Virus record (IMG/VR): IMGVR_UViG_3300002334_000053
Coordinates: 1-61,624 of that record
DNA: 61,624 bases
Origin: a virus
Strand: one strand, 5' to 3'
Both the position numbers and the translations under genes were made by a program. Of this stretch, positions 5,870 to 47,764 are shown piece by piece. Positions within the stretch are counted from its first letter, which is position 1; the number at the start of each line of letters is the position of its first letter. Under the pieces are notes generated by a model, which saw nothing but the letters and a program-made list of their open reading frames with translations, did not search any database and had not been told where the DNA came from.

Positions 5870-5891
5870 TTTCAATACAAGGACGAATGAA

Positions 5892-6715: not shown

Positions 6716-7849
6716 ATGACAAAGAACAGATGCAGGGTATTTCGCGGGGATTGCGTAAACCTTGCGTCCAGACTGCCGGACAACTACGTACACAGTATCG
6801 TGACCGATCCGCCCTACGGCATAAAGTTCATGGGGAAAGATTGGGATGGTCCGGGCGGCGTAGCTTTCCAAAAAGAGACTTGGGAAGAGTTCTTAAGGGT
6901 TCTAAAGCCCGGCGGTCACGTGCTCGCGTTCGGCGGAACAAGAATGCATCATCGGTTGATGGTTGCGATTGAAGATACCGGGTTTGAGATACGCGATTGT
7001 TTGATGTGGTTGTATGGCTCGGGCTTCCCTAAGTCTCACAACGTCAGTAAAGGGATTGACAAAGCGGCGGGGGCAACCGGAACGAGAGGTTCGCTAAAAA
7101 GAGGCGGGGATCGATTAGCGAGTCTTGAAAATGGCAAGCGAGACGGCAAAGGACGATGGGGAGATGAGGTAGGGAGGAACCCTTATACTACAATTCCCGC
7201 AACCGATGCCGCAAAACAATGGGACGGATGGGGCACCGCACTAAAGCCAGCATGGGAACCGATCGTACTCGCCCGTAAACCGTTCAATGGCACCGTTGCA
7301 AAGAACGTACAAGAGCATGGTACGGGCGCAATGAACATTGACGGGTGTAGGGTTGGGACGGATGATAGTCTTGGTGGTGGAGCCACTAAGGGGAAAACAG
7401 TTTGTTCTCATAACGGGGAGGCTTGGGATCGGCCTTGGAAACATAATGATGATGCGAGGGAATCCCACGCATCCAGAGTTAGAGACAACGTAGTAAAAGC
7501 CGAAATGCTTGGCCGCTGGCCCGCAAACCTAATACTTGATGGGGAAGCTGGTGCAATACTTGATGAATCTGTAAAAGAATCACCATCCCGGTTCTTCTAC
7601 TGCCCAAAGACGAATAAAAAAGAACGCAATCTAAATGGGTGTGACAACAGACACCCGACCGTTAAGCCGACAGAGCTTATGCGGTATCTCGTGCGACTCA
7701 TCACGCCACCGAACGGAATCGTTCTTGATCCGTTTTGCGGATCGGGTTCAACTGGCCTAGCGTGCCAACGCGAAAATATGCGCTTCATCGGTTTCGACAA
7801 AGACATAGAATCCGTGCAATGGGCACGCAAGAGAATGGGGATAGACTAA
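6716..7849 (+). CDS. DNA methyltransferase, N6-adenine/N4-cytosine, beta order
   Basis: Transfers a methyl group from S-adenosylmethionine to an exocyclic amine of DNA. The catalytic motif DPPY is at residues 31-34 and the SAM-binding motif DPFCGSGSTG at 338-347; catalytic-before-SAM order defines the beta class, and HPTVKPTELM just before motif I is typical. The middle (about 110-290), carrying the target-recognition region, is loop-rich. No restriction enzyme lies nearby, so it is an orphan methyltransferase that probably protects phage DNA or alters expression. Specificity cannot be read from sequence. Confidence 0.93.
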   Translation: MTKNRCRVFRGDCVNLASRLPDNYVHSIVTDPPYGIKFMGKDWDGPGGVAFQKETWEEFLRVLKPGGHVLAFGGTRMHHRLMVAIEDTGFEIRDCLMWLYGSGFPKSHNVSKGIDKAAGATGTRGSLKRGGDRLASLENGKRDGKGRWGDEVGRNPYTTIPATDAAKQWDGWGTALKPAWEPIVLARKPFNGTVAKNVQEHGTGAMNIDGCRVGTDDSLGGGATKGKTVCSHNGEAWDRPWKHNDDARESHASRVRDNVVKAEMLGRWPANLILDGEAGAILDESVKESPSRFFYCPKTNKKERNLNGCDNRHPTVKPTELMRYLVRLITPPNGIVLDPFCGSGSTGLACQRENMRFIGFDKDIESVQWARKRMGID

Positions 7850-10773: not shown

Positions 10774-11862
10774 ATGAGTAAAACAAACCACGGTCAAGGA
10801 CTTATGGAAGACGTGGGAACTTCTTTCAAGTCGAGCACGTTCCCCGAATACACCGGCGTACCGAACCCGGTACCAAACTCAATCCTTCCGATATTCCAAT
10901 CGGCACAACCTGCCAACACCGGTAAGTACTTTGGCGTTCGCGTTGCTTCCCGAAGCGGTAGAAGGTCAGGTAACCCATACGGGTACAACAGGCTCGGTAT
11001 GAAGATACTCCGAGAGGGTTGGGACTGCGAGGATATGAAAGCGGTGATTCGTCACGCGACCGCGAAGGGTTTCAATGAAATGTTTGTGTGGCACATTCAG
11101 GGGTATCACAAAACAACGAATCACCGGGAAGACGGATCGATGCCCGATTGGGTTCCCGGTGCGACACCACAAGCGGTAGTAGATTCATGGCACCGTCTGA
11201 GAGAGTGGATCAAGATAAACTTTCCATCGTTCAAGCTGAGTATCTACAACGGGCCGACCGTTTCACCGAATTTCGGGACGTTGGATGATCCAAAGTTTGA
11301 GTGGTTGACGATTGCGAATCTTCAGCGCGTCATCGACAAGTACGAGGATTTGATAGACACGATGCAGCCGGATGGTTTCTGCCTCGACGCGTTCAACTGG
11401 ATTATGAGTTATCGAGACGAACCGGTTGGTAAGAACTGGAACGATACAGAGCCTTGTAATCCGGGTGACTCTGAAATCCCAAGAGAGAAGGGGTTGTATC
11501 TACGAGCACTTGGGGGTATGTGCGAACTTGCCAAGAGAAAGAACGTTTACCTGTACCAAGAACCCTTTGCTCTTCACGGCTTCCCCCAGTCGATGGTTGC
11601 GTCTATGAAGCTCATGCAATCGGTGAAGGTTGCGAACAGCCCGCAAGGCATGGACGGACGCTACACATTGGACAGTATGGCACCGCCTGAATTTGAAAGA
11701 AGTTTGGTGAAAGATGTTTCTTTGCTGTTCTACATACACGGCAAAGACTGGGAAACCGAAGAGATTCACGAAACCGTAACCAAGGGGTTTCAGCAGGGCT
11801 ACCGGATGGGTATGACCATCAATCACGCGCAACAGGCGTACGGCTTCCCGAAACTCATCTGA
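10774..11862 (+). CDS. TIM-barrel, glycoside-hydrolase-like protein (362 aa)
   Basis: Family not certain. Regularly spaced hydrophobic strands look like an alpha/beta barrel: GKYFGVRVA (about 51), FNEMFVWHI (about 100), FKLSIYNGP (about 149), GFCLDAFNW (about 201), VYLYQEPFA (about 256), VANSPQG (about 287) and VSLLFYIH (about 316). Asp in CLDAF and Glu in QEPF occupy positions used as acid residues in barrel glycosidases. It could be a virion-bound depolymerase or a cell-wall enzyme. No signal peptide. The stop codon TGA shares its last base with palindrome copy 5. Confidence 0.7.
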   Translation: MSKTNHGQGLMEDVGTSFKSSTFPEYTGVPNPVPNSILPIFQSAQPANTGKYFGVRVASRSGRRSGNPYGYNRLGMKILREGWDCEDMKAVIRHATAKGFNEMFVWHIQGYHKTTNHREDGSMPDWVPGATPQAVVDSWHRLREWIKINFPSFKLSIYNGPTVSPNFGTLDDPKFEWLTIANLQRVIDKYEDLIDTMQPDGFCLDAFNWIMSYRDEPVGKNWNDTEPCNPGDSEIPREKGLYLRALGGMCELAKRKNVYLYQEPFALHGFPQSMVASMKLMQSVKVANSPQGMDGRYTLDSMAPPEFERSLVKDVSLLFYIHGKDWETEEIHETVTKGFQQGYRMGMTINHAQQAYGFPKLI

Positions 11863-11956: not shown

Positions 11957-12178
11957 ATGAAAGTTGAAAACATGGACCCGTCAGAAATCAGTACGTTTAT
12001 TGAATTCCTCGTGTGGTGCTTTGAATCGCTCCATCGGTTCATCGGCCTGCTATTGCTCTTTTTCCTTGCATCGCTACTGTTCTCGGTTGGGTTGTCTGAA
12101 GGTTTTGGTAAGTTTTGTTTAGTGAGAATCACCAAAAGCCAAGACACAAATAATTATCAATGGAACAAGGATGAGTAA
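11957..12178 (+). CDS. Hypothetical single-pass membrane protein (73 aa)
   Basis: Function unknown. One long hydrophobic stretch (RFIGLLLLFFLASLLFSVGL, about residues 27-46) makes a transmembrane helix likely. The frame could extend to a TTG at 11909, but that precedes the AATATACAG box, so the ATG at 11957 is preferred. It overlaps the next gene by 8 nt. Confidence 0.6.
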   Translation: MKVENMDPSEISTFIEFLVWCFESLHRFIGLLLLFFLASLLFSVGLSEGFGKFCLVRITKSQDTNNYQWNKDE

Positions 12179-13055
12179 GATTCCGCTATTTGAACCATGT
12201 ACCGCCAACCACGTTTTAGACAAAACGTCTGAACGTGGTTGGTTTTTTAATCAATTGGTTCTCATAGAAGGGACGTTCGGCGCGGGACGATGGGACTGGT
12301 GGATTGCTCGAACGATGAAAGACGGAAGGCTCGGGAATCACCAGATACCGCAAATAGAATTCATCGACTCACCACAATCTAAACCGGCCCCTAGGATCGG
12401 CTGGGACGCGTCGATGTGTGAATTGGCGTCAACACCGGGTGAGACGTTCAAGCTCGCTACAGACGTGTTTGATAGGCTCATGCGTGACGGTACGAACGTG
12501 TCTTGCATCCTCGATTGGTTCCTGTACGCGTGCGGGGACAATTCGGTAGAAAGACCCAAACATCTATCCGGTGAACATGAAGTGTTCTTGTATCAAGAGG
12601 GTATGTTGATGCTCTCGCGTATGATCGCCAATCCGACCGATTGGGGCCAACACATCGCCGGGTATATTCAGGGTGGCGGCAAACAGTTTACCGGGTGGTT
12701 CCCTACGCCCGTGTGCCTGTCTCGCTTGATGGTTGAAGCGACATTCAACGAACCAGAGAAAAACGATTACCGATTGAAAAGTGTTTGCGATCCGTGCGTA
12801 GGTACGGGTGTGATGCTGCTACACGCGTCGAACTACTCGCTTGATCTTTACGGACAAGATATCGACGTGGTAATGCTGAAGTGGTGTAGATTGAATGGGT
12901 ATCTATTCGCGCCTTGGATGGTTGCGAAGTGGCACAAGATGTTGGAAGAGTACGAGAATCGACCGGTTGAACAATCAACCGACAAATCAAATACGTTCCG
13001 TAGGCGCGGCAAAGTCTACAGAGTAAAGAGAAAGAAAAAGGTGATAGCAAGATGA
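12171..13055 (+). CDS. N6-adenine methyltransferase-like protein lacking the catalytic motif
   Basis: Residues 176-250 resemble the SAM-binding core of type I-like N6 methylases: GWFPTPVCLSRLM, then motif I DPCVGTG (207-213), then acidic GQDIDVVML. Where family members have (N/D)PP(F/Y), this protein has NGYLFAPW (242-249) and no NPP or DPP follows, so it should bind SAM but not methylate DNA. The N-terminal 170 residues match nothing known to me. The basic tail (RRRGKVYRVKRKKK) may touch DNA. It overlaps the Dam-type methyltransferase start (ATGA), suggesting joint action. Confidence 0.7.
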   Translation: MSKIPLFEPCTANHVLDKTSERGWFFNQLVLIEGTFGAGRWDWWIARTMKDGRLGNHQIPQIEFIDSPQSKPAPRIGWDASMCELASTPGETFKLATDVFDRLMRDGTNVSCILDWFLYACGDNSVERPKHLSGEHEVFLYQEGMLMLSRMIANPTDWGQHIAGYIQGGGKQFTGWFPTPVCLSRLMVEATFNEPEKNDYRLKSVCDPCVGTGVMLLHASNYSLDLYGQDIDVVMLKWCRLNGYLFAPWMVAKWHKMLEEYENRPVEQSTDKSNTFRRRGKVYRVKRKKKVIAR

Positions 13056-13834
13056 GATTGAAGCCATTTTTCTCTTACTACGGTTCAAAGTACCGGATAA
13101 CCGGGCTATACCCGAAACCGAAACATGATCGTATTATTGAACCATTTGCGGGGTCAGCTAATTACGCACTCATGTATCACGATAGAGATATATTTCTTTG
13201 CGACATTGACCCTACGATTGTTCGCATTTGGGATTATTTGATAAACGTTAGCGAAGATCGCATTTTGTCTTTACCAGACGTTTGCATAGGTGACCATTTA
13301 GATGATGTCAAGTTCGATGGTTTGGTTTGGGCAGAGAGATCGTTGATCGGGTTTTATCTAAATGGCGGCGCGGCTGTTCCTTGCCGCACACCTTCTAAAT
13401 GGATGGTTGACCTGATACAAAAAAACAAATTGACAAGTAATTATTGGGGACAATTGGCGAGAGAGAAAATTGCAAGCCAATTGAAATATATTCGTCATTG
13501 GAAAGTACGCATGTGCGGGTATTGGTCAATCGAAACTAAAGCACATGCAACGTGGTTTATTGATCCGCCTTATCAGAAAGCAGGTATTCATTACAAAGCA
13601 AGTTCTGAAACTCTCAACTATGAAAATCTTGCTATTTGGTGTAGGTCTAGAAAAGGTTTAGTTATTGTTTGTGAGAATCAAGGCGCAAAATGGTTGCCGT
13701 TTAGAGATTTTGTAATTTCTAGATCAACCACAAAGAACGGTGCAAACTATTCCAAAGAAGTAATTTGGACCAATGATACGTATTCGTTTAAACGTGATGG
13801 TAAAATATACGTCACAAAAAAGAAAAGGTGGTAG
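13052..13834 (+). CDS. Dam-type (D12 class) N6-adenine DNA methyltransferase
   Basis: Methylates adenine in a specific DNA sequence with S-adenosylmethionine. The order is alpha class: FSYYGSKY at the N-terminus, motif I PFAGSANY (residues 31-38), acidic CDIDP (50-54) and catalytic DPPY (171-174), as in Dam and T4-like enzymes. The length (260 aa) is normal. No endonuclease is adjacent. A RSTTKNGANYSKEVIWTN segment near the end resembles the C-terminal block of the D12 family. Recognition sequence unknown. Confidence 0.92.
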   Translation: MRLKPFFSYYGSKYRITGLYPKPKHDRIIEPFAGSANYALMYHDRDIFLCDIDPTIVRIWDYLINVSEDRILSLPDVCIGDHLDDVKFDGLVWAERSLIGFYLNGGAAVPCRTPSKWMVDLIQKNKLTSNYWGQLAREKIASQLKYIRHWKVRMCGYWSIETKAHATWFIDPPYQKAGIHYKASSETLNYENLAIWCRSRKGLVIVCENQGAKWLPFRDFVISRSTTKNGANYSKEVIWTNDTYSFKRDGKIYVTKKKRW

Positions 13835-15385: not shown

Positions 15386-15402
15386 AATTGCGAGCCGCAA
15401 TC
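15386..15402. repeat. Dispersed palindrome, copy 6
   Basis: AATTGCGAGCCGCAATC, 15 nt before the ATG at 15418; one mismatch at the end. Confidence 0.85.
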
Positions 15403-15417
15403 ATGGAGTATAAAAAA

Positions 15418-15729
15418 ATGGCTGCTACGAATGGCGGAACAATTGCTGTTACCGCAACGTCCCTTGCAACGGCTGACACCGTATTTTCCAGTAATCTCAA
15501 TGGCGGTAGTGGTGCGGACGGGTGTAAGGGTATTTCGTTTATCAACGACGGCACGGCTGTTGCCAACGTTTTTTGCGACGGTGTACATGAGCCCGGCGAG
15601 GATACTGAAGGATTCCCTCTTGGTACGGGTGAATCTGTCACATTTGAATCGAATCATATTCGCAGCGTTACGGCATGGGTTGCAAGCGGCAGTGCAAGTT
15701 TGAGGTTTACGGTTACCAAGATCGGTTAA
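15418..15729 (+). CDS. Small Gly/Ser/Thr-rich beta protein, virion-like (103 aa)
   Basis: Not assigned. The composition (Gly, Ser, Thr, Ala, few charges) and predicted beta strands resemble capsid decoration or tail-tip domains; SVTFESNHIRSVTAWVASGS has the pattern of a small beta-sandwich. The start at 15418 has GGAG 10 nt upstream; in-frame ATGs at 15382 and 15403 lie before or in that signal. Confidence 0.65.
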   Translation: MAATNGGTIAVTATSLATADTVFSSNLNGGSGADGCKGISFINDGTAVANVFCDGVHEPGEDTEGFPLGTGESVTFESNHIRSVTAWVASGSASLRFTVTKIG

Positions 15730-15760
15730 ACACAGTTGCTTGATTCGAGGTAAGCGGTTT

Positions 15761-16318
15761 ATGAGTAAAATTCTAAATCAGCACGAGTTGCTTAAGACTG
15801 TCGGTGCAAGTGATGTGCTCGATTACATGTGGAGCCATTCCGTTGGGGGGATGGCTTTTGTTGATCCGAAGGGCGCATTTCTTTGTGTGAACCCTACGCT
15901 CTGTAGTTGGCTCGGGTACGCGCCGAACGAGCTTGAGAATATGACCATCATGGACGTTACCGAACCGGGTGACACTAAAGCCGATATGGCCGCGATGGAT
16001 GACGTGCTCCGAGGGATACGCAACAGTTACACGATGACCAAGCGGTATAAACCGAAGAGCGGCCAACCGTTCGATGCAAAGCTTACGGTTCACGGATGGA
16101 AGGGCGACGACGGCAAAATAGTTTTGTTCTTTTTCTCGCAGGTTGAGAAACTTGATCTTGTTGAGTACCGACCTGTTGACGAATTACGCGTTGTTTACAA
16201 CTTCTTTGTAAACAACAAAAAGATCACACTGATAGCGTTCATAGCTACAGCGCTCGCGGGAGATAGTGCTATCAAGTGGTTGTTCTCAGTGATAGATATT
16301 ATTCGCGGTACGTTTTGA
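15761..16318 (+). CDS. PAS-domain membrane protein next to the holin-like gene
   Basis: Residues about 22-130 form a PAS sensor domain: HSVGGMAFVDPKGAFLCVNP, then CSWLGYAPNEL and MTIMDVTEPGD are the classic FxxxNxAxxxLxGYxxxEL and hinge elements, and a GKIVLFFFSQ strand closes it. A C-terminal hydrophobic segment (about 154-180) should anchor it in the inner membrane. There is no kinase, cyclase or response-regulator part. It is followed 32 bp later by a holin-like gene and a lipoprotein-like gene, so a sensor controlling lysis is possible. The ATG at 15761 follows GAGG. Confidence 0.8.
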   Translation: MSKILNQHELLKTVGASDVLDYMWSHSVGGMAFVDPKGAFLCVNPTLCSWLGYAPNELENMTIMDVTEPGDTKADMAAMDDVLRGIRNSYTMTKRYKPKSGQPFDAKLTVHGWKGDDGKIVLFFFSQVEKLDLVEYRPVDELRVVYNFFVNNKKITLIAFIATALAGDSAIKWLFSVIDIIRGTF

Positions 16319-16350
16319 TGTTTCTAGTTAAATAAAGAAAGGCGGTCTGC

Positions 16351-16617
16351 ATGGACCCACAAAATAAATCGAAGGTTTGGTATAAGTCGAAAACCATCAT
16401 CGGTATCATTATCGGTGCGGTGTTCGCAACACTGGCGATGGCAGGCAATCCCGTTCAGGGACTCACCGAAGATCAGCTTGTAAACCAGATCATGGATTTG
16501 GTTGAGGTTGGCGGTGTGGTTGTCGGCAATATCCTTGCCGTGTTCGGTCGTCTCACCGCGTCGAGCGTGATTGTCGGCAGTGCGAAGAAAGCGGTGAAGT
16601 CCCATGAGCCGATTTAA
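16351..16617 (+). CDS. Holin-like small membrane protein (88 aa)
   Basis: Probably makes the inner-membrane lesion that triggers lysis. Two hydrophobic segments, about 15-32 (IIGIIIGAVFATLAMAG) and about 50-66 (VVVGNILAVFGRLTA), separated by an acidic linker, and a basic C-terminus (KKAVKSHEPI), are typical of small two-pass holins. AAAGG precedes the ATG. It overlaps the following lipoprotein-like gene by 14 nt. Function is inferred from size, topology and neighbours. Confidence 0.7.
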   Translation: MDPQNKSKVWYKSKTIIGIIIGAVFATLAMAGNPVQGLTEDQLVNQIMDLVEVGGVVVGNILAVFGRLTASSVIVGSAKKAVKSHEPI

Positions 16618-17359
16618 CAACCGTGCAATCAATTTCATTGTGACGTGTGCTTTGGCCGTTCTTGTGCTTGTAACATTTGCCGCTTCGGTCTCGTGCTCCC
16701 CACTTCCGCAAGTATCAGCACAGGTGATCCAGAACAATGCCGATGCAACAATCCGACTCGCAAGCAACGATTCGGCATTGTTCGGGCTTCTCAAGAAACA
16801 AACCGAAGCTATCGCGGGCGCAAAGCGGGAGTTGATGCTAGGCCATATCGAGGCTGATATTATTCTGTCTCGATACGTTGAAGATGGTGTTGTTGATATT
16901 GCGAAGATTCAAGGTCACCTTGAGAACGCCGGAATCGTTAGGCCGTATCGAAACGAAATCATTGCACAGATTCGTAACGGATACTGGACGATTGCCGAGT
17001 CTGCTGATTGGCTTGTGCTGCATAGTAGCGTTCGGGCTCTACCTACGGGTTCAACACGCACACAAGCCTTAGACAGCACCTTAGCCCGCCTACAAGTGGT
17101 TTCAGAGCACGATGTGAACATGTCTTTGATTCTTACAGGTATCGACACGTGGGCAATGGATACGTTCGCCCTATGGCAAAGCGTGGACGCGAACAATAAA
17201 TCGTTGGTTGAGTTCGCAACCACAACGTACGAATCGAATGAATGGTTGACAGATCAGGCGGAATCGTATTGGTCGGAACTTGTGCTCGGCAGTATCGACA
17301 ACCCTGAAGTGAAGTCAGATTTGGTCAGGTTCTTCGGAGCCTTGATCCGTAACCAATAA
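16604..17359 (+). CDS. Lipoprotein-like or secreted protein, possible lysis accessory (251 aa)
   Basis: The N-terminus has a basic start, a hydrophobic run (about 10-27) and Cys31 in ASVSCSP, an imperfect lipobox, so export and lipid attachment are likely. The mature part is helical and acidic without a catalytic motif. Location after a holin-like gene would suit an outer-membrane spanin or periplasmic factor, but the length is far above usual spanins. An alternative is a structural or superinfection-exclusion protein. Confidence 0.65.
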   Translation: MSRFNNRAINFIVTCALAVLVLVTFAASVSCSPLPQVSAQVIQNNADATIRLASNDSALFGLLKKQTEAIAGAKRELMLGHIEADIILSRYVEDGVVDIAKIQGHLENAGIVRPYRNEIIAQIRNGYWTIAESADWLVLHSSVRALPTGSTRTQALDSTLARLQVVSEHDVNMSLILTGIDTWAMDTFALWQSVDANNKSLVEFATTTYESNEWLTDQAESYWSELVLGSIDNPEVKSDLVRFFGALIRNQ

Positions 17360-17374
17360 TTGCAAGCCGCAATT
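17358..17374. repeat. Dispersed palindrome, copy 7
   Basis: AATTGCAAGCCGCAATT, overlapping the TAA stop region of the 16604 gene and 33 nt before the ATG at 17408. Confidence 0.9.
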
Positions 17375-17976: not shown

Positions 17977-18011
17977 ATCCGCGTTGCACGAAAGCGTTAC
18001 GCGGATTTTTA
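17977..18011 (+). terminator. Rho-independent terminator
   Basis: ATCCGCGT (17977-17984) pairs perfectly with ACGCGGAT (17999-18006), followed by TTTTTA. An upstream TTG start for the next gene would lie inside this stem, so it is rejected. Confidence 0.85.
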
Positions 18012-18052
18012 CAGAAATTACAAACTTCCTTTCACACAAGGGAATTATTGCA

Positions 18053-21000
18053 ATGGAAATTGTAGATTACCGCGAGCAAAGCAAGCATATCGATATGTTG
18101 AGTTTTTCACGAGGTGCTTATACCCGAAAATGGGACGGTGAACATCTTTCGCCTAACGTGAAACGGTTTGCAAGAAGAAAAGCAATCTGTAGCCGCACAC
18201 CGATTACCGATTTGGTCACAGATACAATTATACAACACGGGTCGGGGTTTGATGAGATAAGAGCAAGCGGCTACGCAAGTGATATGACGCGAATGATTTC
18301 TATGAGGGTTACATCCCCGAGGAAATTGAACGATGCGGGTAATGCCGTGCAAGGAACGAACGGCGACGTTCAAATATATGTTGGTGATGTTAAAACTATA
18401 TTTGCAAAAATACAATCTGGTGAATATACGTCCCCTTCACTTGTTAACGGTTACGGTTACGCGTCTTATGACGAGGGCGAGATATACATGTACGGCGGCG
18501 TGTGGCAGGGGTACATGGGTGGTCTAGACGGTGCAGTGGCATCATTGTTTAGTGGAGCGGAACCCGTAAGAACATTCGAGGCAATACCCGAATGGCTAGA
18601 TAAGCCTGATTCTGAAAGTTACGACGGGGCCGTTTCTTTCACACCTGCGTACGGCAGTGTACGGCGCGGTTGTTTGGTCGCTCAATTCCGAGGTGCCCGG
18701 TATGTCGGGAATGTTGATGCGACAGACTCAACGCGTTGGTCGTGTGACGGTACGGGTTATTTCATGTGGCAAGAACCGGCAAACAAAGCTTCGCCTGTAG
18801 GTCACTGGACAAAGCTTCGAGACCATAACGATTGGGTAAACGTTGGACAGCCGCACGGCGACCTGTTCGGCGATGCGTCTAATTACCGATACGATCATTG
18901 TGTTGGCAGAATACGAAACTCTGAATGGTCGAGAGTTCGTTGGTCAACACTTGGCGTGCGTAATTCAGAATCCATATCGAAGGTTTTTTGTTATGCAGAT
19001 GACTATATGCACGGCGGTACGATAGATGGTGTTACTGGTAGTAAAGGTGCTGTTCAGTCGCTTTTCTCTATTGATTATGACGGCTCTACGTACACGCTAT
19101 CCTCGAAGGTTGACTTTCACGAATTGTATGACCCGGCATCTGATTCAGACGTTGAAGCTGACGACCAGAGACATGGGCACGGCTGTTACCTACATCTGGT
19201 TTGGAATGCAGCGAACACTGCTAGGTATATGGTTTTGGTCGTAGCCTCTTCGGACAATCCCTTCGACGGTCTTTCGGCTATGTACTTGCCGTACAACTAT
19301 GATCCCAACGATCCAGATGCAGGAACTTGGGAAGCTAATTTCAGTGATCCTACTGAGTGGGTTGGTGATTCTCAATCAGACTTTGCAAACAAGATTTGGC
19401 TTACAGGCGGCGAATACACCGATGCACTTGCATCAGGTGGACGGTTATTTTCCTTGACGCAAGGACCGAACGATGATGAGTTTTTGGCTACATCCGATGC
19501 AAACTTCGCACCCGTGACCGTTATTACGTGGACTAAGATTGATGAGCCGCCTACGTTTAGAGCAGCTTTTAACCAAGCTGACTTTGGACCTAGTTACTCT
19601 TTCGATCTTGTACAAGATAAGCCGGGAGACCCTACGAGCAAGATGGCATGTTTGGTTTGGCGTGGCGGACCCAACAATGGATACAGTGACTTGTCAGATG
19701 ATACGTACCGCGCAATGTTGAGTGATGACGGGGGCGACACTTGGGGAATGGGTCATTACCCGTACTTGCCCGGTAGGTGCTTGGCAATCATTCAGAACCA
19801 TATCTTGTTTTGTGGGTCTTTCGATATCAAGAAAGCCGAATGGCCGGAAATTATCAAAGGCCCGTTCTTGACGATGGCTAGAGGCGGTTTGAATATGGGT
19901 GCCTTTGATCCCCCAGCTAGTCGTGATCCAATGTCTATCGGTGAATTCGGTTCACTCACATCACCCGATGTTGAATTGGGGTTGGAAAGAGCCGATAGCG
20001 GTTCTGGTGTGAATACAAACAATGGCGGGTTCGTACACGATGGCGTCGAGCTTCCACGCGATCCGGGTGATGCTGTTTTCGCAGGGTTTATTTATACCGG
20101 CACTAGTGGCGGAGAATCTATGTTGATAAATCCGTTCTTCCACAATTCAAGCAAGTCGAATGATGGTGAACTTGTAGACGGCCAAGCTCAGATCACTTAT
20201 GTAGGTTTGGCTTTACGATCAAATTGGGAGTGGCCCACAAGACAGATCGGCTCGAATACCTTTGCCATTCGTCTTTATACAGGCGGCGGTGATAATGGTA
20301 ATGAGTTACCCGAAGATTCGGCGGTCTATGTTCCTGCTGGTTCTGCCCGAGCGTTCTCTTTTGACAGTACAGAAGAATGGACAGAATTTACCGTGACCTA
20401 TCCGGCAGGATTTAATTTTGATGACCTTGCAAACAGTATGAGTAATACAGGTTTGCGTTTCAGAATAAAGCCGAATGGTAACAATTGGGCTGCCGGTGTT
20501 TACTACACGTACGAGCAGGTGTACCAAGGTCCGCATTGGCCGATGTTCCCTACGCCACCCGGCGCAGATAATGACTCTTCCGCATTTCCTGAAACGGTTT
20601 TACTGAATTGGGTTGTGCCCGTAAATCATGTTATTTTCGGCGCGAGAGTCATCCCGATTTCATTGAACCCGAGACTTCTACCTTGGTTCATCAATACCGT
20701 TGATTCTAACATGCAAGATGCGGGCGACCCAGCAGCCGTACCGGGTTCAACCGAAGCGCCGCTTCCACAGAATTATTATGAACAAAACATGGAGCTTGTT
20801 TTCTGTGAAAACGTTATCACCCTTTGCGAGCATGGCGATACAACCAGCGATGATTTCGTAAGGCTTGAAATAATCGATCAAGCCGATTCGGATAGTGGTT
20901 CGACGATGCCGCCAGTGATTATTAGATTGAGTGGGGAAATGAACGGGGTTCCGTTCTCTTCAGATACCAATCTGTCTGACGCTGACGGCAGGCACGTGAT

Positions 21001-21346
21001 GATGACAGGCGGGGACAATATCCTGTTTGCCTTACATGTGCTAAGCTCGGGCGTCTACGCTGCCGTAGAAATTGGTGGCGTGTTCAAAGCGACGGCTGTT
21101 GTAACCGGAACAACGGCAACGATGACTTATATACAAGATGGTGCTAATTTCCAACATGTGAAATCTAAAGCAATGGAGTTAGAATATATCTTCACATCGC
21201 TTATGACAGAGGCGGAATATGGAAACGACGAAGATAGATTCGCAAGCTTCATTTCTTTGATTCGTGATATTGATGTGAACGACTCGGTTGGTATCAGCAA
21301 ATCAATAGGCGGGCGACACGGAATTACAGTTGTAGAAAGAGTTTAA
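18053..21346 (+). CDS. Large tail/receptor-binding protein with a sialidase-type Asp-box (1097 aa)
   Basis: Probably a virion adhesin or glycan-degrading tail protein. Near residue 556 the motif SDDGGDTWG is an Asp-box (SxDxGxTW), the turn that repeats in six-blade sialidase propellers; the surrounding sequence is rich in Trp, Gly and Asp with many beta strands. Only one clear Asp-box is visible, so a full enzyme is not proven. The ATG at 18053 has AAGGGA upstream. No membrane segment or signal peptide. Located apart from the main tail genes. Confidence 0.75.
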   Translation: MEIVDYREQSKHIDMLSFSRGAYTRKWDGEHLSPNVKRFARRKAICSRTPITDLVTDTIIQHGSGFDEIRASGYASDMTRMISMRVTSPRKLNDAGNAVQGTNGDVQIYVGDVKTIFAKIQSGEYTSPSLVNGYGYASYDEGEIYMYGGVWQGYMGGLDGAVASLFSGAEPVRTFEAIPEWLDKPDSESYDGAVSFTPAYGSVRRGCLVAQFRGARYVGNVDATDSTRWSCDGTGYFMWQEPANKASPVGHWTKLRDHNDWVNVGQPHGDLFGDASNYRYDHCVGRIRNSEWSRVRWSTLGVRNSESISKVFCYADDYMHGGTIDGVTGSKGAVQSLFSIDYDGSTYTLSSKVDFHELYDPASDSDVEADDQRHGHGCYLHLVWNAANTARYMVLVVASSDNPFDGLSAMYLPYNYDPNDPDAGTWEANFSDPTEWVGDSQSDFANKIWLTGGEYTDALASGGRLFSLTQGPNDDEFLATSDANFAPVTVITWTKIDEPPTFRAAFNQADFGPSYSFDLVQDKPGDPTSKMACLVWRGGPNNGYSDLSDDTYRAMLSDDGGDTWGMGHYPYLPGRCLAIIQNHILFCGSFDIKKAEWPEIIKGPFLTMARGGLNMGAFDPPASRDPMSIGEFGSLTSPDVELGLERADSGSGVNTNNGGFVHDGVELPRDPGDAVFAGFIYTGTSGGESMLINPFFHNSSKSNDGELVDGQAQITYVGLALRSNWEWPTRQIGSNTFAIRLYTGGGDNGNELPEDSAVYVPAGSARAFSFDSTEEWTEFTVTYPAGFNFDDLANSMSNTGLRFRIKPNGNNWAAGVYYTYEQVYQGPHWPMFPTPPGADNDSSAFPETVLLNWVVPVNHVIFGARVIPISLNPRLLPWFINTVDSNMQDAGDPAAVPGSTEAPLPQNYYEQNMELVFCENVITLCEHGDTTSDDFVRLEIIDQADSDSGSTMPPVIIRLSGEMNGVPFSSDTNLSDADGRHVMMTGGDNILFALHVLSSGVYAAVEIGGVFKATAVVTGTTATMTYIQDGANFQHVKSKAMELEYIFTSLMTEAEYGNDEDRFASFISLIRDIDVNDSVGISKSIGGRHGITVVERV

Positions 21347-22884: not shown

Positions 22885-23181
22885 ATGTCTACAGTTAGAA
22901 CAATGAAAAAGACTGTTACGATTATTGATTCTGAACCGCACAATACATATACGAGAAGAGCGTATTTATTCCGTCTTGATTCAAACCGGGTTGCGATAAT
23001 GGGTGTTGAAGTTTGCGAAGGGTTAGAAGTACATCCTTCGTCTTGTGTTCTCAGAGAGAGTTTGTCACGGTCGATTCACCTGTCGCGAAATTGGTGTGAC
23101 AGAGTAAAACCATTTGATATAGATCAGAGTTTAGTTGTTTGCCTAGCAGGTGTTTTACATGATGAGTCGAAAAAGGTGTAA
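22885..23181 (+). CDS. Hypothetical protein (98 aa)
   Basis: Not recognised. Beta-type pattern (VTIIDSEPHNTYTRRAYLFRL) with three cysteines. Its 3' end overlaps the glycosyltransferase 5' region by about 23 nt. Confidence 0.7.
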   Translation: MSTVRTMKKTVTIIDSEPHNTYTRRAYLFRLDSNRVAIMGVEVCEGLEVHPSSCVLRESLSRSIHLSRNWCDRVKPFDIDQSLVVCLAGVLHDESKKV

Positions 23182-23842
23182 AGGAAATACAGCGTTGCAC
23201 ATATCTGAATTGCAAGCCGCAATTGAGGGCAAACGTGTAGCGGTTGTAGGTAACGCCAAACAGACACTTGAGGGCGAAGGCAGATTACCCATTGACGATT
23301 ACGATTACGTCATCCGGTTTAATCGTGCGATGGTGGGTACTCGCCTTGGTGCTAAAACAGATTTGCTTGTACTAGCTCAGATCGGTATTCAACAACACAT
23401 CCTTTCGACAGTGCGGCCCGAACTAATCTTGTGGACAAGACCGCAAAAGTTCCAAGAGATACCGAAGAGTCACGACTACCTGAATCACTGTGACAACGTA
23501 ATCATCTTGCCCAAAGATTTACTGTTCGGGCTTCACAGCGATTTCGGCACACTAGAGCTGAAATCTGTTGGAAATATGATGCTGCCGAAGCGCCGAGTTC
23601 CTTCGACCGGGTTTATCGGGTTGTGGTATCTGCTCGAACATTGCTCACCGGCATCGGTTGATATCTGGGGATTCGATTTTTGGGAGTCTCGGTCAACGTC
23701 TTCACCAGAGAGGGCCACACCCGGCCCGCACGATTACGGCTTGGAACGGGCGAAACTGTACGGAATGGGCGGGTTTAAATTCATTGATCCGAAACACAAC
23801 GACCCCAATCAGGGCGAGATTGTGAAAAAATATCTGAAATAG
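23159..23842 (+). CDS. GT29-like glycosyltransferase (sialyltransferase superfamily)
   Basis: The region VAVVGNAKQTLEGEG ... IDDYDYVIRFNRA matches the L-motif of family 29 sialyltransferases, PSTGFIGLWYLLEHC ... VDIWGFDFW matches the S-motif, and HDYGLERA resembles the small terminal motif with its catalytic His. It probably transfers a sugar from a CMP-donor to a glycan or protein. ATGs at 23159 and 23162 have weak ribosome sites; TTG at 23195 has AAAGGA and would remove 12 residues. The 3' end is built from promoter cassette 3: the repeat supplies KKYLK and the stop. Confidence 0.82.
   Translation: MMSRKRCKGNTALHISELQAAIEGKRVAVVGNAKQTLEGEGRLPIDDYDYVIRFNRAMVGTRLGAKTDLLVLAQIGIQQHILSTVRPELILWTRPQKFQEIPKSHDYLNHCDNVIILPKDLLFGLHSDFGTLELKSVGNMMLPKRRVPSTGFIGLWYLLEHCSPASVDIWGFDFWESRSTSSPERATPGPHDYGLERAKLYGMGGFKFIDPKHNDPNQGEIVKKYLK
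23208..23224. repeat. Dispersed palindrome, copy 8 (in 5' coding part)
   Basis: AATTGCAAGCCGCAATT, translated as LQAAI, just inside the GT29-like gene and near its alternative TTG start. Confidence 0.85.
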
Positions 23843-33579: not shown

Positions 33580-34242
33580 ATGACACACACGTACGACCAT
33601 AAAGATCAGGTTGCTCTTATAGTGGCTTCAGGGCCGTCGTCGGGAATGATTACGCAACAGTACCTTGAGAAGTTCCGAGAGCACTATAAGGAACAAGGTA
33701 CGGTCATCATCGGAACAAACAACGTGTGGAACGTTGCGAGCGGGTCGCCATTGTTTGCGGATTACGGGGTGATCCTTGACCGCGACTTCTTGGCAAAGAA
33801 CCAAGGGCCGATGAATACTTACCGTAAACTCAATCCGGCGTTCATTCCGGTGTTGGGATTCAAACCGCGCAACGATGTTTTAGGCAAGTGGCACCAAATA
33901 AACATCCTCACGGATCGAACGGCAGAGTTTGAACCGGCGTATGAATTCGGGCAGTATTTCCACGGGTTATCTTCCGGTGTTGCTGCTATACAATTCGCGC
34001 TACATTGCGGGGTTTCAAAGATACTTTTGATTGGGCATGATCTTTGTTGTCACGAAGGAAAGACACACGGAAACGGCAAGAGAAATAATATCGAGTTAGA
34101 TAAGAATTACCCGCAAGGCCGTGATATGATGATTGGGTACATGTGGGTGTACGAACAGGCAAAGAGTCTAGGTGTAGACGTTCTGAATCTTTCACCTATT
34201 TCTGAATTAAACTTTATCCCAAAACCAGTAAACGCGGAGTAG
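33580..34242 (+). CDS. MptE/DUF115-like Rossmann protein
   Basis: Related by pattern to the 6-hydroxymethylpterin pyrophosphokinase MptE-like/DUF115 group, often found in glycan and flagellin-modification loci. It begins VALIVASGPSSGM, a phosphate-loop-like motif, then TVIIGTNNVWN; the second half has LSSGVAAIQFALHCGVSKILLIGHDLC, the conserved GFDL-type block. The substrate is unknown. It follows the methyltransferase by 4 bp, so the two are expressed together. Confidence 0.72.
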   Translation: MTHTYDHKDQVALIVASGPSSGMITQQYLEKFREHYKEQGTVIIGTNNVWNVASGSPLFADYGVILDRDFLAKNQGPMNTYRKLNPAFIPVLGFKPRNDVLGKWHQINILTDRTAEFEPAYEFGQYFHGLSSGVAAIQFALHCGVSKILLIGHDLCCHEGKTHGNGKRNNIELDKNYPQGRDMMIGYMWVYEQAKSLGVDVLNLSPISELNFIPKPVNAE

Positions 34243-46465: not shown

Positions 46466-47764
46466 ATGATTCAGAAAAATCCTAGAACTTCAGATGTTGA
46501 CAAATGGAATAATTTGAGCGAAGACGAGCGGGTAGATATTTGTTTACCTATCTGGGAAGACCGTAATGAATGGGGATACAATATTGATAAACCCGCACAC
46601 CATACAACGGTTGCGAAAAGAAGATCGTCGTGCGACTCTTGCAATCACCAGACAGATGTTGATGGCGGCAGTTATTGCAATTTGATTGCGAGTCGTTCAG
46701 GAACGATTCAGTTTCTAGATGACGATCTTCTCAGAACACCAAAACTTGATTGCCCTGTGCGTGCAAAGGGGTTTTCAAACAACTTCAAAGATAACCCGTC
46801 TGTTTCACTCGTCATTGCTTGCTTGAATGAGGGAAGCGATCTAGAAGCAACGATTGCGACAGTACTAGCCGCCAATACAAAGCCGGATGAAATCTTGCTC
46901 GTTGACGACGGGTCAGTTGAACCTTGTAATCATCGGGTTGCGCAAATGATCGCGTATGCAAACGTTGATTTTAAGTACATCCGGCATACGAAAAGAATGG
47001 GTTCGTCAGTATCCAAGAACGTAGGGTGTGCGAAGTCTTACGGCGACGTTGTGATTGTGGTTGATTCTCATATGCGGTTCCCGTTGAACTGGTTGGATAT
47101 GATGTTGGCCGACTTGAGAGAAAACCCTACATCGATAATTGCCGCTGCATCAATCCCGATGGATTCGATATCTAAATGCCGGGTGCTCGCGGGTACGGAT
47201 TGGACGTACGATGACGACACCGCCAACTATAAACTCAGGTGGTCATTAAGCCACATCAGAGCGAACGCACCTTACCGCCAGCCGGGTTTGATGGGTGCTT
47301 GCTATGGAATGACCAGAGATACGCTAGATTGGCTTGAGGGCTATGCTCCCGGCCTCACAGGGTACGGTATCGAAGAAGAGTGGTTATCTTACCGCGCTCA
47401 TCTGCTCGGGATCGGCATACGGTTTAGTAGACAGTGCAAAGTAGAGCACAAATATAGTCGCACACCGAACCGATTGGATTGTCAAGGCACACAACCGCCT
47501 ATGTGGGAAATGTACTGGAACCGTCTGGTGCTCATGTGGGGCATAAGCGGTTTCCCGCCCGAACCAAACGCCGGTTACTTTGACAACATGCTTGATGCAC
47601 TATCGACCAATGGGGACAAAACGATGAGCGACCAACTCATTAAATGCGTTGAAGAGAACTTCTTGAATATCCGAGAAATGATGTATCGGCTCAACGCCAA
47701 GGTCAATCGAATCGATCCAGAACGACGAAAACACATCAACAAAGAACAGTTTGAAGAGGTCTGA
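46466..47764 (+). CDS. GT2 (GT-A fold) glycosyltransferase with N-terminal Cys domain
   Basis: Transfers a sugar from a nucleotide donor. The GT-A core starts near residue 112: VSLVIACLNEGSDLEATIA, then ILLVDDGS, MGSSVSKNVGCAKSYGDVV and the metal-binding VVDSHMRF (DxH, as in polypeptide GalNAc-transferases); GYGIEEEWLSYRAHLLG resembles the later catalytic region. The first 100 residues hold CDSCNHQTD, YCNL and DCPVR, a possible metal site. It starts 3 bp after the tail-tip gene, suggesting virion or host-surface glycosylation. Confidence 0.85.
   Translation: MIQKNPRTSDVDKWNNLSEDERVDICLPIWEDRNEWGYNIDKPAHHTTVAKRRSSCDSCNHQTDVDGGSYCNLIASRSGTIQFLDDDLLRTPKLDCPVRAKGFSNNFKDNPSVSLVIACLNEGSDLEATIATVLAANTKPDEILLVDDGSVEPCNHRVAQMIAYANVDFKYIRHTKRMGSSVSKNVGCAKSYGDVVIVVDSHMRFPLNWLDMMLADLRENPTSIIAAASIPMDSISKCRVLAGTDWTYDDDTANYKLRWSLSHIRANAPYRQPGLMGACYGMTRDTLDWLEGYAPGLTGYGIEEEWLSYRAHLLGIGIRFSRQCKVEHKYSRTPNRLDCQGTQPPMWEMYWNRLVLMWGISGFPPEPNAGYFDNMLDALSTNGDKTMSDQLIKCVEENFLNIREMMYRLNAKVNRIDPERRKHINKEQFEEV

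Follow-up and report, generated by a model that had tools for sequence, protein, structure and literature searches.

We argue that the stand-alone PAS protein encoded at 15761-16318 of this phage may be a sensor held at the membrane, where it would adjust a membrane protein encoded next to it, most likely during lysis. We put the probability of this reading at about 0.4. The wider claim, that a PAS sensor cooperating with phage membrane and lysis proteins is a real design across phages, is partly supported. PAS genes adjoin endolysin, holin-like and coiled-coil membrane genes above chance, some proteins are fusions of PAS and membrane segments, and there is a PAS-kinase operon, all of which favour such a design. 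The protein has a PAS fold, it is encoded in a tight gene block, and PAS genes recur beside lysis and membrane genes in other phages.

The window is the whole 61,624-nt stretch of DNA analysed here, the linear virus record IMGVR_UViG_3300002334_000053, and its source is a tailed phage. This is certain from the terminase, portal, major capsid protein and tape measure. A profile search of the window found genes for the large terminase, portal, head morphogenesis, scaffold, major capsid and tape measure, and a DnaB-like helicase, an exonuclease and a DNA polymerase III alpha are also encoded. The capsid and terminase share at most about 30% identity with their counterparts in isolated phages. IMGVR_UViG_3300002334_000064 is the same phage; it is identical over the compared parts and 15.2 kb longer upstream. 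Two sialyltransferase-like genes (23150-23842 and 33580-34242; Pfam GT29 8.4e-8, PHROG alpha-2,3-sialyltransferase 8.3e-9) and a GT2 glycosyltransferase gene at 46466-47764 point to possible glycan modification by the phage. There are three DNA methyltransferase genes (6716-7849, 12171-13055 and 13052-13834), two of them adjacent and overlapping. The 362-aa protein at 10774-11862 reads like a TIM-barrel glycosidase and the 1120-aa protein at 17984-21346 has an Asp-box-like SDDGGDTWG motif; neither matches a curated family.

The PAS gene is the second of four genes in a block at 15403-17359, which has a palindrome at either end:

15388..15400, + strand: palindrome copy TTGCGAGCCGCAA, just 5' of the block (core-motif matches and context)
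15403..15729, + strand: 108-aa protein, first gene in the block (ORF; coding signal 0.35 bits/codon)
15761..16318, + strand: stand-alone PAS (S-box) protein, 185 aa, with a hydrophobic C-terminal tail (sequence profiles, fold, hydropathy, coding signal)
16351..16617, + strand: 88-aa membrane protein with two hydrophobic segments (phrog_29088, hydropathy; holin-like by size and topology only)
16604..17359, + strand: 251-aa protein with an N-terminal signal anchor and an imperfect lipobox at Cys31 (hydropathy, sequence)
17360..17372, + strand: palindrome copy TTGCAAGCCGCAA, immediately 3' of the block's last stop codon

The spacing from the PAS gene to the 88-aa gene is 33 bp, and the 88-aa and 251-aa genes overlap by 14 bp. 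In-frame codon use is phage-like in all four genes. The 108-aa protein belongs to no curated family in the Pfam, PHROG and NCBIfam profiles. Since the palindrome copies bracket the block, it may be a single expression unit. The full 17-bp palindrome, AATTGCRAGCCGCAATT, has about 20 copies in both orientations, and its core has 28 matches in the window where 3.6 are expected. Many copies sit directly behind stop codons, 20-45 nt before the next start. Sites in the window include 5489, 9421, 11864, 15388, 17360, 26928, 32899, 43210, 53223 and 61444, and there are sites at 5875, 9419 and 12604 in locus L009. It resembles a regulatory element used across the phage, with positions like those of actinophage stoperators or an RNA hairpin.

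The initial annotation proposed a stand-alone PAS domain here, and both curated profiles and the predicted fold bear it out. NCBIfam sensory_box (TIGR00229) matches with E=1.8e-12 (47.5 bits against a cut-off of 22.9) and Pfam PAS_9 (PF13426) with 5.4e-8 (33.5 bits against 27). The best NCBIfam profile is the PAS of the E. coli-type diguanylate cyclase PRK09776 (3.4e-20). AlphaFold gave a poor model without an alignment, and this was replaced by a run with 22 phage PAS sequences. The new model has pLDDT 80-94 across most of residues 20-110, and the PAS fold is modelled confidently for residues ~17-127. A Foldseek search with it returned 493 PDB matches at E<=0.001, and the 50 listed are PAS proteins. 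The codon signal in frame is 0.33 bits/codon, compared to 0.18-0.41 for core phage genes, and GAGG stands upstream of the start. This implies 15761-16318 is a gene rather than a chance reading frame. Pfam and NCBIfam found no second domain within the 185 residues, so the PAS plus DNA-binding arrangement of VqmA is not present.

The C-terminal anchor holds up only in part: there is a hydrophobic tail, but its hydropathy is borderline and it has charged residues inside. The 55 residues after the PAS domain end in ITLIAFIATALAGDSAIKWLFSVIDII plus a few residues and are hydrophobic at ~153-182. The best 19-residue hydropathy is 1.54, with one Asp and one Lys within, and the AlphaFold model is unreliable in this region (pLDDT <50). 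That the tail is a membrane anchor is a plausible but weak reading of its sequence. Bound haem or flavin, which the annotation had suggested looking for, does not agree with the motifs. In haem PAS domains of the FixL/DosP type, the F helix carries the proximal His that binds haem (FixL H200, DosP H77). The window PAS has Asp75, which aligns with the His column of L056 and its relatives, so it is not a haem PAS of this type. It is not a LOV flavin PAS either, as it reads ELENMTIMDVTEPGD where GxNCRFLQ with the photoactive Cys would stand. Since Asp75 replaces the His and the LOV motif is absent, haem or flavin binding of a known type is not expected.

The two downstream genes had been called holin-like and lipoprotein-like. 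The 88-aa protein is small and has two hydrophobic segments, but holin profiles fall below their cut-offs (PHROG holin 0.023, Phage_holin_1 0.07), and these best E-values do not make it a holin of a curated family. Its sole clear match is phrog_29088 (2.9e-7), whose function is unassigned. The 251-aa protein does have a strong N-terminal hydrophobic segment (KD 2.63) and Cys31, but the lipobox is imperfect. Where [LVI][ASTVI][GAS]C should end the signal sequence, Cys31 lies in ASVSC with Ser at -3. The protein is without the C-terminal TM segment expected of a u-spanin, and no family in the Pfam, PHROG and NCBIfam profiles matches it. No endolysin was recognised among the scanned proteins of the window and the 15 kb upstream, which are part of the ORFs of an incomplete genome. 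Since no endolysin family appears among these proteins, the trio in the window is a putative lysis cassette. The PAS, 88-aa and 251-aa genes have no relatives outside the same phage in phage records and viral contigs.

Since the window genes have no close relatives, it is worth considering PAS genes in other phages. A search of 2.9 million viral contigs for canonical PAS motifs yielded, among other matches, about 20 stand-alone PAS proteins of IMG/VR phages. Several lie in lysis cassettes. The gene order is PAS, membrane gene, Amidase_3 in L047; coiled-coil/TM, PAS, two-TM, Amidase_3 in L061; VanY-like peptidase, PAS, coiled-coil/TM in L054 and L060; PAS, membrane genes, Phage_lysozyme in L088; and PAS, Glyco_hydro_19 in L094. 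In L061 and L094 the PAS gene is inside the cassette, with starts overlapping on both sides. L087 has a PAS protein with an N-terminal TM segment, and its gene overlaps a 3-TM gene. A Pfam check of the neighbours confirmed Amidase_3, Amidase_2, Phage_lysozyme and Glyco_hydro_19, while the VanY/M15 matches were below cut-off in L054 and L097 and above it in L060.

Four endolysin families were searched over whole contigs, and the expectation was taken from random placement. In 9 of 14 endolysin-bearing contigs the endolysin and PAS genes are no more than 2 kb apart (2.3 expected, P 1.5e-5); this set includes two pairs of related phages and, in L094, an endolysin that was read from the neighbours. 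Once the L094 endolysin and the related duplicates are removed, the count is 6 of 11 against 1.5 expected (P 6e-4). A tblastn search of 50,697 records of isolated phages with two stand-alone phage PAS proteins gave 0 matches, so the pattern rests on metagenomic contigs.

Seven aligned FixL-like phage PAS proteins have an invariant His at the haem-ligand position of FixL and DosP. An alignment of FixL-like PAS sequences proved too diverse to serve as a locus-search query. The second sample came from a DNA pattern that includes the haem His, and it has 63 stretches, mostly encoding small stand-alone PAS proteins. Such small FixL/DosP-like PAS proteins, stand-alone and with the haem His, are widespread in viral contigs and mostly have small membrane genes beside them (L055, L056, L094, L133 and about 40 more loci). 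After de-duplication, a small TM protein is encoded on the PAS strand no more than 60 bp away at 28 of 40 FixL-type PAS loci, compared to 10.5 expected from the other genes at the same loci as read by a simple gene caller; 0 of 200,000 simulations reached 28, and 5 of the 63 stretches (L049, L050, L055, L056 and L094) are shared with the first sample, a slight overlap for this count. Many of the partners, 60-115 aa long, combine a coiled coil with a TM segment at the C-terminus. They have weak PHROG matches (phrog_1193, 937 hemolysin and 689 holin). An XhlA identity was considered for them, but the profile support is weak and no curated family is above cut-off.

In many pairs the start and stop codons of PAS and partner overlap. 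In L102 (PAS ORF on the - strand) and L143 a single protein runs from a PAS through a coiled coil to two C-terminal TM segments. The PAS comes first and the membrane part last, the same order as in the window PAS. These overlaps and fusions favour direct cooperation between PAS and membrane protein. Jumbo-phage fusions of this kind, about 250 aa with a FixL-type PAS, occur in L102, L143, L118, L122 and L148. The endolysin test was repeated on the new contigs only with three families, and an endolysin was detected in 7 of 38. It lies within 2 kb in 2 of these 7 (P 0.025) and within 4 kb in 4 (P 6e-4). Pooled and de-replicated, the endolysin gene lies no farther than 2 kb from the PAS gene in 8 of 18 endolysin contigs, against 1.7 expected (P 2e-5), where both samples are partial, being drawn from motif scans, and random placement is a crude control that is also compatible with a cargo hot spot. 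It must be noted that the window PAS is outside the FixL-like class, which supplies much of this comparative signal. A prophage candidate was sought by a genome scan; it gave four matches, mostly in MAGs, and the Roseococcus one (L158) is a multi-domain sensor protein.

Marine contigs have another arrangement. A membrane PAS histidine kinase is present at 14 loci, in an operon with the order kinase, CheY-like regulator, 182-aa TM protein, 107-aa TM protein. The kinase and regulator are named from sequence motifs. The operon is conserved in L025 (7932-10860), also in L031, L032, L036, L037 and relatives. A lipoprotein-like protein with a C-terminal TM segment, which is u-spanin-like, comes next in L025, and in L031 an Amidase_2 gene is just upstream of the operon. 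We found no paper on phage-encoded PAS histidine kinases in the open-access literature.

We propose the following scenario for the window. The PAS protein would be a cytoplasmic dimer, tethered to the inner membrane by its C-terminal tail if that tail inserts. The block that encodes it would also supply a small membrane protein with two segments and an envelope protein with a signal anchor. A small molecule or partner would bind the PAS, and through a presumed contact the neighbouring membrane protein would assemble differently, with the PAS acting in an anti-holin or pro-holin manner. Membrane opening, i.e. lysis, or another envelope change could thereby be tuned to the state of the host.

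Anti-holins such as T4 RI and RIII, also small phage proteins, make holin triggering responsive to a signal, but RI and RIII contain no PAS domain, and RI works from the periplasm. The XhlA-type hemolysin or holin proteins found in phage lysis modules resemble in architecture the coiled-coil/TM neighbours of phage PAS genes, though the 88-aa protein is not of this type. The haem PAS oxygen sensors FixL and DosP and the haem PAS of FG214 (PDB 10jx) have the S-box PAS fold in common with the window PAS. Many phage PAS proteins retain the haem His of FixL and DosP, in contrast to the window PAS. In FixL, DosP and FG214 the PAS is part of a kinase, phosphodiesterase or transcription factor, unlike the stand-alone phage PAS. 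The annotation also held that known cues for lysis timing do not use PAS. This needs qualification, since VqmA of Vibrio phage VP882 is a PAS receptor that binds DPO and triggers the lytic programme via transcription (PMC12802170, PMC8284805). Like the window PAS it is a phage PAS protein; the small molecule that it detects comes from the host, and its action ends in lysis. However, VqmA is a DNA-binding transcription factor on the lysogeny switch and does not act at the holin, whereas the window PAS has a membrane tail, holin-like neighbours and no DNA-binding domain. Host-state control of a phage cycle has been proposed as CtrA-dependent 'lytic deferment' (PMC9437464), but there a host regulator acts at phage promoters and PAS is not involved. 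A stand-alone SH3 has been added to T1-like lysis modules (PMC13164509). The likeness is a lone domain in a lysis module; SH3 is a cell-wall-binding domain and again no PAS is involved.

One can imagine a scenario where the free PAS pairs with the PAS of a host sensor kinase or diguanylate cyclase and blocks its signalling, and where the nearby membrane genes are incidental. PAS domains do dimerise, the window PAS has no output domain, and its best profile is from a diguanylate cyclase. We consider this decoy unlikely, as it gives no reason for PAS genes of unrelated phages to gather around endolysin and small membrane genes, or for PAS domains to be fused to membrane segments. Another route is an insertion hot spot flanking late or lysis genes, in which the PAS would be cargo, a moron with an unconnected role, for example in host fitness or superinfection exclusion. 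Regions flanking lysis genes commonly collect unrelated cargo genes. No lysis enzyme is recognised in this phage, and several PAS genes of the second sample are far from any detected endolysin (L112, L143). However, many PAS genes sit within the cassette itself, their starts overlapping on both sides as in L061 and L094, and what they adjoin is specifically small membrane proteins, so we think this improbable too. The PAS could also be a functionless fragment of a captured host sensor kinase, since it is a stand-alone domain whose relatives were not found. This is very unlikely given a complete PAS fold, its own start with a ribosome-binding site, a tight block and phage-like codon use.

The comparative evidence for the class favours the membrane-sensor reading over decoy, cargo and remnant. 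At the level of the window there is evidence against it: the endolysin is unrecognised, the holin identity is unproven, the tail is a borderline TM segment, and the PAS is outside the haem class. A more general scenario is one where several unrelated tailed-phage groups have a sensor-gated lysis module. In it a stand-alone and often haem-type PAS would have as its direct target a small membrane protein of coiled-coil or holin-like type, and lysis would be set by host oxygen, redox or energy. The window PAS would be a divergent non-haem member, and the marine kinase and regulator operon a two-component version. We regard this general scenario as rather doubtful.

Taken singly, PAS domains, holins and phage sensing of the host are already known. 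We found no description in the open-access literature of PAS proteins that recur in lysis or membrane modules, some of them having a haem ligand. Lysis timing is attributed to holin chemistry, and few outside cues are known. If the recurrent PAS pairing is real, lytic phages would read host physiology directly at the last step of infection. Phage oxygen or redox sensing before lysis becomes testable with defined gene pairs.
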